Below, in pieces: positions 1,077-21,670 of a stretch of DNA of 64,000 nt. The position numbers were made by a program, and so were the translations under genes. Every line of letters begins with the position of its first letter. The first letter of the stretch is position 1. Origin of the DNA: Streptomonospora nanhaiensis (GTDB lineage Bacteria > Actinomycetota > Actinomycetes > Streptosporangiales > Streptosporangiaceae); contig NZ_JACCFO010000001.1 of assembly GCF_013410565.1 (NCBI RefSeq), positions 1,860,001 through 1,924,000 on the forward strand. Reading direction: 5' to 3'. The notes beneath the pieces were generated by a model. It was not told the origin of the DNA and did no database searches. It saw only the letters and a list, made by a program, of their open reading frames with translations.

Positions 1077-2258
<1,182 letters not shown>

Positions 2259-9590: not shown

Positions 9591-9637
9591 CCCGCGCCGC
9601 GCAACCGCACGCCGCCGACACCCGGAGGGGGACCACC

Positions 9638-10690
9638 GTGACAACACCCGACCAGCAGCCCGCCCGTCCCGGACCCGGCGGCGCGCCCGCCACCGCGTCC
9701 GCCCGCCCGGCCGGCGCCGTTTCGCCGGAGGCCGTGCGCACCGTCGCCTGCGTGGGGGCGGGCGTGATCGGCGGCGGCTGGGTGGCGCACTTCCTGGCGC
9801 GCGGCTACCGGGTCACCGCCTGGGACCCGGCGCCTGACGCCGAGCGCCGGCTGCGCGACCTGGTGGACTCCGCCTGGCCGGCGCTGACGCGCCTGGGCCT
9901 GGCCGAGGGCGCCTCGGTGGCCAACCTGACCGTGGCGCCCACGCTGGCCGAGGCGGTGGCCGGAGCGGACTTCGTGCAGGAGAGCGCGCCGGAGCGGCTG
10001 GAGCTGAAGGTGGAGCTGCTCGCCGAGATCGACGCGGCGGCGCCCGAGCACGTCGTCATCGGGTCCTCGACCTCGGGCTACTCCATGACCGAGATGCAGG
10101 TGCGGGCGGCGCGGCCGGGGCGGCTCGTGGTGGGCCATCCGTTCAACCCGCCCTACCTGGTACCGCTGGTGGAGGTGGTCGGCGGCACGGCCACGGACGC
10201 GTGGGCGGTGGAGTGGGCGTCGGAGTTCTACCGTGCGGCGGGAAAGTCGGTCATCACCATGGACCGGGAGCTGCCGGGGTTCATCGGCAACCGCATCCAG
10301 GAGGCCGCCTGGCGGGAGGCGCTGCACATGGTGGCCAACGGCGAGGCCACGGTGGAGCAGATCGATCTGGCCATGACGGCGGGGCCGGGGCTGCGGTGGG
10401 CGTTCTTCGGCCCGTGCCTAACCTTCCACCTGGCCGGGGGCGAGGGCGGGATGGCGCACATGCTCGACCACTTCGGCCCGTCGCTGAAGTCGCCGTGGAC
10501 CCGCCTGGAGTCGCCGGAGCTGACGCCCGCGCTGCGCGACGCGATGGTCCGCGAGACCGACGAGGTGGCGGCCGGGCGCAGCAACGCCGAACTGATCGCC
10601 CAGCGCGACCGCCGGCTGATCGCGGTCATGCGCGCCCTGGCGGAGGTGGAGGCCGAGGAGGCGCGAGAGGCGCAGGAGGCGCGGGCGTGA
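9638..10690 (+). CDS. lcdH: L-carnitine dehydrogenase (3-hydroxyacyl-CoA dehydrogenase family)
   Basis: 350 residues. An NAD-binding Rossmann motif VGAGVIGGGWVAHF lies after a 30-residue Ala/Pro-rich leader, followed by SSTSGYSMTEMQ, GHPFNPPYLVPLVEVV and GNRIQEAAWREALHMV, all typical of 3-hydroxyacyl-CoA dehydrogenase-like proteins. Carnitine dehydrogenases belong to this family and oxidise L-carnitine to 3-dehydrocarnitine. The assignment relies on the BKACE gene before it and the thioesterase after it; in some rhizobial enzymes the thioesterase is fused to this protein. The start GTG 9638 follows GGAGGGG, and the stop overlaps the next gene (GTGA). Confidence 0.8.
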   Translation: MTTPDQQPARPGPGGAPATASARPAGAVSPEAVRTVACVGAGVIGGGWVAHFLARGYRVTAWDPAPDAERRLRDLVDSAWPALTRLGLAEGASVANLTVAPTLAEAVAGADFVQESAPERLELKVELLAEIDAAAPEHVVIGSSTSGYSMTEMQVRAARPGRLVVGHPFNPPYLVPLVEVVGGTATDAWAVEWASEFYRAAGKSVITMDRELPGFIGNRIQEAAWREALHMVANGEATVEQIDLAMTAGPGLRWAFFGPCLTFHLAGGEGGMAHMLDHFGPSLKSPWTRLESPELTPALRDAMVRETDEVAAGRSNAELIAQRDRRLIAVMRALAEVEAEEAREAQEARA

Positions 10691-11148
10691 CGGCGGAACC
10701 GGGGACCGGGGCCGGGGCCGTGCTGTTCCGCCAGCCCGTCCGCCCCGAGTGGATCGACTACAACGGCCACCTCAGCGAGGCGTACTACGTCCTGGTGTTC
10801 GGCTTCGCCACCGACGCGCTGATGGAGCGGGTGGGGCTGGGCCCCGCCTACCGCGAGGCCACCGGCCGGTCGCTCTACACGGTCGAGGCGCACGTCCGCT
10901 ACCTGCGGGAGGTCGGCGCCGGCACCGAGGTCGAGGTCCGCACCCGCGTCCTCTCGGTGGGCGCGAAGAAGGTCCGGTTCTGCCACGAGATGCTCCTGGA
11001 GGGCGACCTGCGCGCCACCGAGGAGCTGATGGCCCTCCACGTCGACCAGGCCGCGGGTTCGGCCGTGCCGTTCCCGCCCGAGGTCGCCGATCGCCTGTCC
11101 GCACTGGTCGAGCCCGCTCCCGACTACGCGGGCCGGTCGATCGGCTAG
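10687..11148 (+). CDS. Hotdog thioesterase, probable betainyl-CoA thioesterase
   Basis: 153-residue 4-hydroxybenzoyl-CoA thioesterase-like hotdog protein. RPEWIDYNGHLSEAYY carries the conserved Asp-x-Asn-x-His region, and SLYTVEAHVRYLREV forms the second family strand. It overlaps lcdH by four bases. In the carnitine route, BKACE would release betainyl-CoA, and a thioesterase of this type would hydrolyse it to glycine betaine, a compatible solute or carbon and nitrogen source. Fold assignment is firm; substrate is by context. It ends the operon, with a repeat-rich gap downstream. Confidence 0.78.
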   Translation: MTAEPGTGAGAVLFRQPVRPEWIDYNGHLSEAYYVLVFGFATDALMERVGLGPAYREATGRSLYTVEAHVRYLREVGAGTEVEVRTRVLSVGAKKVRFCHEMLLEGDLRATEELMALHVDQAAGSAVPFPPEVADRLSALVEPAPDYAGRSIG

Positions 11149-11300
11149 CCCGCCGTGCGCCGACACGGCCCCGCGCCGGAGTGCCGCAACCGTGGCCGCC
11201 GCGCCCCCGTGTCGGCGCACCGGGCCCGAGCAGGGCCCCAGGGCGGCGGAAGCCGCGCGGGGCGACCAGCGTCGCCCCTCGTCGGGCTGAGGCCGCGACG

Positions 11301-11575
11301 GGGCGCCAAAGGCAGCGGGAGCCCGGGGCAAGCGGAGACCGGGACCGTAGCGGATGGTCGCGGTTGCGACGAGGCACCGAGGACAGCGCATGGCGGGGCA
11401 GAGCGGCCACCGCACCCTGCCCTCAGCCCAAGGCCGCAACGAGGGCGCCAAAGGCAGCGCGAGCCTGCGCCGGGCGATCACCGGCTCGGCCTTCGTCCGG
11501 CTACGGCCCCCGAAGGGAGCACCGAAGGCAGCAGGGGGTGCGGGCAGGCGGAAATCGGTGTCGGCGGCGAGGGCC
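11301..11575 (+). repeat. Degenerate GGCGCCAAAGGCAGCGGGAG repeat units
   Basis: Three related units occur: GGCGCCAAAGGCAGCGGGAG near 11302, GGCGCCAAAGGCAGCGCGAG near 11444, and GCACCGAAGGCAGCAGGGG near 11519, each preceded by a related GGCCGC-rich stretch. The third unit continues into GGTGTCGGCGGCG (11557-11569). The same two blocks appear in inverted orientation at 21518-21571, beside the second copy of the larger element. The units are diverged and not in strict tandem (142 and about 74 bp apart). Confidence 0.7.
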
Positions 11576-11660
11576 GCCGTTGCGACACTCGGGCCGGGCA
11601 CCACTGCTGCGGGCTGGGTGGCCGCGTGTTAGCCGATCCGCGCGCCGCGCGCTGCCGACT

Positions 11661-11914
11661 GGCGAGAATCCGCAGATCGTCTGCCTAACCGGCAGCCGTT
11701 TGCCCCTTATGTCCGCTTCGGGGTTGCACATGGGCCGACCAACAGCACCCACAACGCCTCGTTGTCCACCATGTGAGACGCCAGTCCGACTCGCAAGGCC
11801 ATTCTGAGGCAAACGCCCGTTTTCAAGAACGACGATCTGCGGGTTTCGACCGGACGGGCGGCCGTGGATGCGGGATCGTCGCCTCCGCAGCTCATCCATC
11901 TCATATGGCGAGAC
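11661..11914 (-). repeat. Dispersed repeat element, copy A (GACGATCT hairpin family)
   Basis: Read on the minus strand this stretch matches 21248-21440. Shared blocks in order are GTCTCgCCATATGAG, GACGATCc, a 34-base spacer with CGCATCC and CGGCCG, AGATCGTC, gaAAACGGGC, GGACATAAG, CAAACGG, GACGATCTGC and GATTCTCGC. The GACGATCY/AGATCGTC pair can form a hairpin with the same 34-base spacing in both copies. Copy A carries about 60 bp more than copy B between the second and third GACGATCT-type sites. No terminal inverted repeats or transposase are seen. A short minus-strand frame (MDELRRRRSRIHGRP and on) is partly conserved in copy B. Confidence 0.85.
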
Positions 11915-12199
11915 AACCAAGGCGCGCGCGGCCGTTGTTGCCGCAGCTCACGGGTCGCGCCATCTGCCGGCCAGGACGGCCGCGGACCGAATCCGAGCGC
12001 CGGTCAGCGCGCCCCCCGTTCCCCACCAGCACCGGGCGGCCGGATGCGGACATCTTCGGCCCCGGGCGCTGACGTGGGGGTGCGCGCCAAAACGATCACG
12101 GAGCGGGGCGAATCCGTAACCCTCGCGAGGCGACAGGCATAGACTCCGAGGTTATCGACGACCTGCCTGCTTCAACCCCCCGAAGAGGACAGCGACGCC

Positions 12200-15819: not shown

Positions 15820-15892
15820 CTCCCGCGACTGGACTCGAACCAGTAACCTGCCGGTTAACAGCCGGCTGCTCTGCCAATTGAGCTACGCGGGA
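15820..15892 (-). tRNA. tRNA-Asn (GTT)
   Basis: On the minus strand the 73-base sequence starts TCCCGCGTAGCTCAATTGG. It has a paired acceptor stem TCCCGCG/CGCGGGA, a D arm with TTGGCAGAGC, the anticodon loop CTGTTAA with GTT at 15857-15859, and a T arm with GGTTCGAGTCC. Discriminator base is G, and CCA is not encoded. Anticodon GTT reads Asn codons AAC/AAT. It is a single tRNA gene with its own terminator. Confidence 0.96.
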
Positions 15893-21045: not shown

Positions 21046-21247
21046 GCCCTCCCGGGGTAATTCCGCAGGCCAGGAGAGGACCTCGCCCTCATCCCGCATT
21101 CCGGCGCAGCCGGGATGCGGTGATCCGGCCGCAGCGGTTGAGCGCGGGACCCGGAGCCAACCGGTTCACCGTCGCCACGACGACGATCCCGCGCTCATCT
21201 GCGGCCAAGCCACAGGCGTGAAGCGGAAACCGCTTACCCCCTCTTTG

Positions 21248-21440
21248 GTCTCACCATATGAGTACACAACCGCCGTGGGAGCGACGATCTCGCATCCTCG
21301 GCCGTCCGGGCGACCGAGAACCGAAGATCGTCACCCTGGAAAACGGGCATTCCCTTAAAAAACCACCCTTCATGGCCCGCCCCAAAGGGGACATAAGCAG
21401 CAAACGGGCGCTCGACCGCCGACGATCTGCCGATTCTCGC
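21248..21440 (+). repeat. Dispersed repeat element, copy B (GACGATCT hairpin family)
   Basis: Plus-strand counterpart of 11661-11914. It begins GTCTCACCATATGAG (21248-21262), has GACGATCT at 21283-21290, AGATCGTC at 21325-21332 (34-base spacer, as in copy A), GGAAAACGGGCATT, GGGGACATAAG, CAAACGGGC, a third GACGATCT at 21421-21428, and ends CGATTCTCGC. A 62-codon frame from ATG 21258 reads RRSRILGRPGDREPKIVTLENG, with a similar stretch in copy A (RRSRI, GRP, IV, LENG). Outside that stretch the frame is not conserved, so coding status is doubtful. Confidence 0.85.
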
Positions 21441-21517
21441 TTCTAGGCCGCGCTGGTCCCTTTACCGGCGGCGACCCGTTCACGCAGGCGGTGCGCCACT
21501 CGTCCCGCCCCCACCCC

Positions 21518-21571
21518 CGCCGCCGACACCGGTCACTGATCGGCGCCTACCCCAACCCCCCGCTGCCTTCG
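21518..21571 (-). repeat. Flanking repeat block of copy B (CGAAGGCAGC ... GGTGTCGGCGGCG)
   Basis: On the minus strand CGAAGGCAGC (21562-21571) is followed by GGGGGGTTGGGGTAGGCG and then GGTGTCGGCGGCG (21518-21530). The same blocks in the same order stand at 11523-11532 and 11557-11569 beside copy A. In both places the GCGAGAATC end of the main element lies about 75-95 bp further on. The repeat is thus a composite unit of 330-400 bp. Confidence 0.75.
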
Positions 21572-21670
21572 GCGCCCCCGACGGAGCCGCCGCTCCATGG
21601 CGGCCGGACCGCTCACCGCCCCGCCCCACCACCCACCGCCTTGAGCGGCTCCGGATGGTCCGGCTGTGGC

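Follow-up and report, generated by a model that had tools for sequence, protein, structure and literature searches.

Two intergenic stretches of the Streptomonospora nanhaiensis chromosome, here called A (plus strand) and B (minus strand), are members of a dispersed family of non-coding repeats. Both lie in the 64,000-nucleotide stretch that we analysed (the window; C1:1860001-1924000 of a 6.28 Mb genome). The repeat has a defined anatomy, with tandem arrays that face inward on a central core. It occurs in many copies, sits between genes, and is present at some orthologous sites and absent from others. With moderate confidence, we interpret A and B as copies of a non-autonomous mobile element that resembles a miniature inverted-repeat transposable element (MITE) or a foldback element, has inverted arms of the array type, and would be moved in trans by a recombinase.

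The initial annotation of the window described motifs shared by A and B in the same order but opposite orientation. This likeness is real: the two stretches can be aligned end to end, inverted relative to each other, with a mean column identity of 77%, and ~60 bases of A are absent from B. The genes flanking A and B are unrelated, as had been claimed. A genome-wide search with A found a further copy (E 2.0e-13) and matched B via its array end only (E 1.8e-4); likewise, a search with B found a further copy (E 2.4e-11) and matched A via the array end (E 2.7e-4). A sequence-only model of the right half of the core, built from 12 copies including A and B, finds 38 places in the S. nanhaiensis genome at full or nearly full length (E <= 1.6e-5). 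The model did not include 26 of these 38, and chance likeness of A and B is excluded. Copies are found on either strand and all round the chromosome; a congeneric genome, G003, contains 26 core copies. The annotation had named fewer than two further copies, with no conservation in relatives, as the mark of a chance duplication; what the two genomes contain is the dispersed non-coding family that it proposed.

The arms of the element are arrays of ~72-bp units that point toward the core. At one locus, L067, tandem-repeat analysis counted 6.5 copies of a 72-bp unit on one flank and 4.9 copies, inverted, on the opposite flank. A unit profile, started with eight seed sequences and extended over 36 S. 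nanhaiensis core loci, made 145 matches at the 38 loci (E <= 1). Of these, 69 are on the left in plus orientation and 74 on the right in minus orientation, all within 1.5 kb of the core and facing it; the two exceptional matches are more than 3 kb from a core. Units at these loci are expected because the profile was grown there, but their orientation is not, and neither are the results for G003 or for a 400-kb sample of the S. nanhaiensis chromosome. At the 26 G003 loci, taken with 1.5 kb on each side, 158 of 160 matches face the core (76 left/plus, 82 right/minus, 2 exceptions). In the 400-kb sample (400001-800000, five cores), 17 of the 18 unit matches with E < 1 are no more than 720 bp from a core, with four of the five cores involved, and shuffled sequence gave no match with E < 1 to the same profile. 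At least one unit is present at 35 of the 38 S. nanhaiensis loci. Inward arrays flank the core on both sides at 23 loci, without a defined terminus, and on one side at 12, including A and B; three loci have no unit. The annotation saw no terminal inverted repeats. This is accurate for A and B insofar as each has a detectable array arm on a single side, but the family does have inverted repeats, in the form of the inward-facing arrays. Similarly, the motifs shared by A and B do not form the single unit that had been outlined: CGAAGGCAGC and GGTGTCGGCGGCG are parts of array units, and lie in the unit closest to the core within the ~72-bp tandem repeat that flanks it and is distinct from it.

The core is ~300 bp long and contains a 60-bp inverted repeat and two palindromes, P1 and P2. 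The consensus order in S. nanhaiensis and G003 is a left arm ending in a TCGTCGGC-like sequence, P1, a ATGCCCGTTT-like motif, the 60-bp inverted repeat, and P2. The P1 consensus in S. nanhaiensis copies is GTCCACATTGTGAGAC, and the inverted repeat of these copies is in a fixed register, CGACGATCT...AGATCGTCG, in which 54% of pairs are Watson-Crick, as compared with 20-30% in ten neighbouring registers. The P2 consensus is GTCTCACCATGTGAGAC. At least 11 of its 14 half-site bases are found in 36 of 38 S. nanhaiensis copies and in 25 of 26 from G003; 31 and 21 copies, respectively, have the strict form TCTCR-N5-YGAGA. At least 10 of 13 P1 bases are found in 35 of 38 and 21 of 26 copies; this score is the best match within a 150-bp stretch, and a few may be chance. 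Among copies scored with both palindromes, the end-to-end distance from P1 to P2 is 135-136 bp in 30 of 33 (S. nanhaiensis) and 18 of 20 (G003). B has no P1, which falls in its missing block.

Table 1. Parts of copies A and B, with window positions, strand and supporting evidence.
Feature	Window positions	Strand	Evidence
Left array of A, four ~72-bp units pointing toward the core	11296..11575 (outer ends approximate)	+	Unit matches centred at ~11327, 11391, 11464 and 11543; unit 11296-11357, E 3.1e-8
Core of A	11655..11930 (ends approximate)	+	Alignments; model match 11810-11921, E 8.3e-21
Left conserved arm of A, GCGAGAATCCGCAGATCGTCTG	11662..11683	+	Sequence and alignments
Palindrome P1 of A, GTCCACCATGTGAGAC	11764..11779	+	Sequence
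60-bp inverted repeat (hairpin sequence) of A, arms CGACGATC...GATCGTCG	11830..11881	+	Sequence and pair statistics
Palindrome P2 of A, operator-like	11898..11914	+	Ends 135 bp past the end of P1
Core of B, block with P1 missing	21240..21445	-	Alignment; model match 21241-21353, E 1.0e-22
Palindrome P2 of B	21248..21264	-	Sequence and alignment
Inverted repeat (hairpin sequence) of B	21283..21332	-	Sequence; fold -39.8 kcal/mol, z -5.6 against base shuffles (L064)
Left conserved arm of B	21420..21440	-	Sequence and alignment
One inward-pointing array unit of B	21515..21590 (ends approximate)	-	Unit match centred ~197 bp from the core; holds the CGAAGGCAGC motif

A transfer RNA (tRNA) gene lies between A and B (window 15820-15892, minus strand). 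The genes adjoining A (window 9593-11148) are carnitine-breakdown-like; they encode a carnitine 3-dehydrogenase-like protein, which scored under the curated cut-off, and a thioesterase.

Array units are spread far wider among genomes than cores. We surveyed 150 genomes of the bacterial family for cores (E <= 1e-4, best 24 candidates per genome, stricter filters) and found more than one match only in S. nanhaiensis (G000) and G003, with one match in each of five others. Of these single matches, L092 in G001 is a true relative, flanked by arrays; L295 and L296 appear by eye to be coding, and two others are unassigned. L092 (~1440-1600, minus strand) has a near-perfect ~61-base hairpin followed by a perfect 56-bp palindrome where P2 would be. 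No core of the S. nanhaiensis type was found in G002, G004 or G005 at E <= 1e-4. For array units, a survey of 21 genomes (E <= 0.01, best 150 candidates per genome, high counts being lower bounds) gave at least 110 matches in S. nanhaiensis, at least 126 in G001, at least 139 in G003 and at least 148 in G004, with 18 in G002, 15 in G012 (another genus), none in G005, and 0-2 in the other 14. Within S. nanhaiensis, two close inverted pairs of copies, L067/L068 and L061/L062, 23 and 30 kb apart, are 87.6% identical over 1257 bp and 93.1% identical over 768 bp, and may mark gene conversion or inversion endpoints.

The inward arrays of G004 enclose another core, of ~1 kb. Plus units precede minus units in all 13 G004 stretches, about nine of which were chosen because both orientations were listed close together. 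The 11 cores that were aligned (L365-L377) are palindrome-rich, and five of them include a hairpin module of ~130 bp that resembles the hairpin of the S. nanhaiensis core. Hence, the arms are common across genomes and the cores differ by lineage. Inspection of nine G004 loci by eye for termini revealed no shared end.

The elements sit between called genes, with no preference for gene orientation. The neighbours of S. nanhaiensis loci are tandem in 21 cases, divergent in 6 and convergent in 8 (35 called of 36 given, A and B not among them); those of G003 loci are tandem in 9, divergent in 4 and convergent in 6 (19 called of 20 given). For G004, calls were possible at 6 of 9 loci. The first gene caller that we used put 2 of the 38 cores inside open reading frames (ORFs), which were mis-called genes in the arrays, and it was replaced by another. 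Because neighbour orientations show no preference, placement bound to promoters or terminators was not seen, and a role as promoter or terminator was rejected. We also rejected coding sequence: neither six ORFs over one G004 core nor the two that were searched, of seven ORFs of at least 60 aa overlapping the A core (E <= 0.01), had a Pfam match. For those two ORFs, this agrees with the annotated lack of a transposase inside the element. Window positions 11560-11930 had no match at E <= 0.001 in 50,697 phage and 72,556 plasmid records. The palindrome alone is present in 7 viral contigs, where core model matches extend no farther than the stretch just around it, and a phage or plasmid origin was rejected on these grounds. 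A literature search, with few subscription papers within reach, found no description of this repeat family among the titles and abstract openings listed.

What might bind the palindromes? The sequence TCTCRNNNNNYGAGA occurs 59 times in the S. nanhaiensis genome, as compared with 7 times for the reversed control. Among the 50 sites listed of these 59, 28 are in element cores (hand count) and 22 are elsewhere. Three of the 22 non-core sites fall within a single 9-kb cluster of branched-chain genes: they precede leuB by 98 bp, the gene for citramalate synthase by 205 bp, and ilvB (identified by eye from the translation) by 217 bp. The leuB site, GTCTCACCATCTGAGAC, is identical to the P2 consensus at 16 of 17 bases. 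An imperfect GTCTCGCTATTTGGAAT is near the start of a putative ndgR gene, in the ndgR-leuC intergenic stretch. The product of this gene is IclR-type by Pfam, and we named it NdgR because the gene is placed opposite leuC, as in Streptomyces coelicolor (PMC4340878). That study describes binding of NdgR to ilvB, leuB and ndgR-leuC at a 15-bp palindrome (PMC4340878), and a review gives the NdgR motif as KTYCRSMWYSYGRRM (PMC8222616). S. nanhaiensis has palindromes upstream of branched-chain genes, as would be expected of NdgR operators, at ilvB, leuB and citramalate synthase, and an imperfect one at ndgR-leuC; the S. coelicolor operators described there are likewise imperfect palindromes at ilvB, leuB and ndgR-leuC (PMC4340878). 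Moreover, the left half of P1, GTCCAC, is a half-site in the published table of S. coelicolor NdgR sites (PMC4340878). The intergenic site at ilvB recurs in G001, G003 and G008 (another genus), and that at citramalate synthase in G003 and G005. Since P2 resembles the leuB site and like sites precede other branched-chain genes, NdgR, an IclR-type regulator of branched-chain amino-acid genes, is the predicted binder of P1 and P2.

Two further observations concern this palindrome. The GTCTC-N7-GAGAC type found before citramalate synthase, leuB and ilvB (L297:3794, 6388, 12504), and in imperfect form before ndgR (L303), is a candidate NdgR operator form for the genus. A further occurrence of the palindrome, between flavodoxin-like and MocR-like aminotransferase genes (L302:2074; genes named by eye), is possibly another regulator target.

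How could such an element have arisen? We propose that each side began as a single terminal inverted repeat unit, that tandem duplication inside each arm then raised the number of units, and that a trans-acting enzyme would have recognised either the inverted ends or the hairpin. Similarity between units is higher inside an arm than across loci (0.747 against 0.665 in S. nanhaiensis, 0.723 against 0.674 in G003, and 0.735 against 0.719 in the nine G004 stretches compared). The initial annotation suggested seeking empty sites in related strains. Streptomonospora mangrovi (95% identity over the query protein) has no core at either orthologous site: between the same genes, it has 224 bp at A and 135 bp at B, as compared with 849 bp and 658 bp in S. 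nanhaiensis.

Several observations weigh against a mobile element with inverted arms. The two arms of a locus resemble each other no more than arms taken from separate loci do in S. nanhaiensis, G003 or G004: of 1000 re-pairings, 167, 947 and 425, respectively, gave a mean at least as high as that observed. In addition, an arm is missing from one side at the 12 single-armed S. nanhaiensis loci, A and B among them, and from both sides at three. The G004 cores are 86-88% alike, whereas position-matched array stretches are 72-79% alike and the shuffled null is 69%; core and arms therefore may not travel together. S. mangrovi retains one array unit at site B. G003 has no core at the site of the S. 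nanhaiensis copy 987964, yet it keeps three left-arm units there, together with a weak 72-bp right-arm match (E 1.6e-4). Because units are present at these two sites, loss explains the differences as well as gain does. The family has been gained, lost or both, and presence or absence does not give the direction. Exact insertion junctions were sought at A, B and 987964 and not found, since the orthologous intergenic DNA is too diverged, and site 4118883 has no contiguous orthologous flanks. A target-site duplication was not found at the orthologous sites of A, B and 987964. No transposase was found, and no search aimed at transposase genes was made. As for NdgR as the predicted binder, a point against it is that the P2 half-site GTCTCAC is one base longer than the half-site of the S. 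coelicolor 15-bp NdgR motif (PMC4340878).

If a turn of the helix is 10.5 bp, the P1-P2 spacing corresponds to ~13 turns. Two dimers bound at this distance would lie on the same face of the DNA, an arrangement that could favour looping across the hairpin. With dozens of copies, the elements would also add to, or compete with, the regulator sites at ilvB and leuB. A looping or decoy role for P1 and P2 is thus predicted from spacing and sequence. We tentatively put forward a more specific, and doubtful, proposal: that this is a bacterial foldback family whose arms are tandem 72-bp subrepeats, whose core captured a host pair of amino-acid-regulator operators 13 turns apart, and whose mobile copies seed regulator-bound loops or decoys.

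An alternative, which we consider unlikely, is that the elements are vertically inherited sites maintained by the host, at which NdgR or a chromosome-organising protein binds P1/P2 and loops the DNA, with the arrays as by-products of local duplication. This would account for palindrome bases that are nearly invariant while the remainder has diverged, for the fixed spacing, and for the near identity of P2 and the leuB site; at least five of the 26 G003 copies are at sites shared with S. nanhaiensis copies. However, the other 21 have no counted shared site (for six, the flank compared was 1.5 kb or shorter, and the count leaves out a 740-bp match at 76% on one side), G002, G004 and G005 have no core of this type at the survey threshold, and the elements show no placement relative to promoters.

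It is less probable still that only the hairpin cores are mobile and inserted mid-way into older inverted array pairs. Array units without a core at the G003 987964 site are consistent with such insertion, as is the greater likeness of G004 cores than of G004 arrays, and so is G001, where the many unit matches are accompanied by L092 as the sole core-model match among the best 24 candidates. Against this, all but one of the unit matches in the 400-kb sample are beside a core, and arrays are inverted around the centre in S. nanhaiensis, in G003 and in the 13 G004 stretches, selected in part as described above.

The initial annotation gave a conserved RNA among its options. We regard as very improbable a family of structured non-coding RNAs, produced at many loci, in which the 60-bp hairpin and P2 would form stems. 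Of 21 hairpin pairs in a chosen set of 16 sequences from four genomes, 12 are changed on both sides with pairing kept, and some copies fold strongly (z against base shuffles of -8.9 for L081, in addition to the value for B in Table 1). However, strong hairpins were the main ground for choosing these 16, and more weight goes to a test on all gap-free copies (33 of 38 from S. nanhaiensis, after removal of three that had indels and of one member, the second, of each close pair, and 25 of 26 from G003). In this test, the paired fraction was 0.535 as compared with 0.509 (standard deviation 0.013) for re-paired halves in S. nanhaiensis, and 0.477 as compared with 0.496 in G003; the compensation scores were 0.052 against 0.038 (standard deviation 0.006), and 0.024 against 0.026. 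Pairing is ~two standard deviations above re-paired halves in S. nanhaiensis and not above them in G003, such that the compensatory changes that the annotation had suggested looking for amount to a slight excess in the former and none in the latter. The mean fold z is -1.7 in S. nanhaiensis and -0.6 in G003, and the hairpin of A (L069, z -0.2) is no more stable than shuffles. RNAalifold found 1 of 15 pairs changed on both sides in 12 S. nanhaiensis copies, and Rfam, at gathering score, matched tRNA only in the window and five element loci. As for P2, its outer T-A, C-G, T-A and C-G positions are intact in 35-37 of 38 S. nanhaiensis copies with at most one two-sided exchange each, and the next position has A-C mismatches in 7 of 38. 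Because bases rather than pairing are conserved, P2 is more readily seen as a binding site for a protein than as a stem in an RNA. With the Rfam, RNAalifold and all-copy results negative or weak, we rejected an RNA family. Finally, chance similarity or simple local duplication of one intergenic stretch has a negligible claim: the two close inverted pairs do resemble local duplication or conversion, but 38 copies round the chromosome and a second species refute it.

If the element is indeed mobile with inverted array arms, foldback-type elements exist in bacteria, and mobile repeats are able to spread operator pairs of a metabolic regulator among many intergenic positions. Titration of a metabolic regulator by mobile DNA, and the origin and loss of inverted subrepeat arrays, could then be tested in one strain, and the differing cores of related genomes would form a natural series for following element change.

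Eukaryotic foldback elements such as Galileo and Tm1 have long inverted arms of tandem subrepeats around a central part. By this description, the arm layout of the present family is alike, with both arms at 23 of 38 S. nanhaiensis loci. The family differs in being bacterial and in having arms that are not homogenised with each other: arms of one copy, which in foldback elements would be homogenised or inherited together, are no more alike here than those of other loci. The likeness is one of structure. Repetitive extragenic palindromic (REP) sequences and bacterial interspersed mosaic elements (BIMEs) have a short palindromic unit of 20-40 bp and an associated transposase, RAYT (REP-associated tyrosine transposase). 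Because a core of ~300 bp plus arrays is too large for such a unit, the annotated REP-like option does not fit. Of the three options in the annotation, MITE-like describes the family best, although transposase and target duplication are missing. Bacterial MITEs, according to one review, are short, non-coding and multicopy, and have no internal transposase; some, the Correia elements, contain a binding site for integration host factor (IHF), a DNA-binding protein of the host (PMC10969869). The present family is likewise short, non-coding and multicopy, with 38 copies and no Pfam match for the two A-core ORFs searched, and has a site of the host-protein type, here a predicted operator. It differs from these MITEs in that its arms are arrays of ~72-bp units, simple terminal inverted repeats and target duplications not having been found, and from Correia elements in that its site resembles the operator of an amino-acid regulator rather than an IHF site (PMC10969869). 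BrickBuilt of Porphyromonas gingivalis is a bacterial MITE that contains tandem repeats (PMC4596501); in contrast, the tandem arrays described here form inverted arms around a unique centre.
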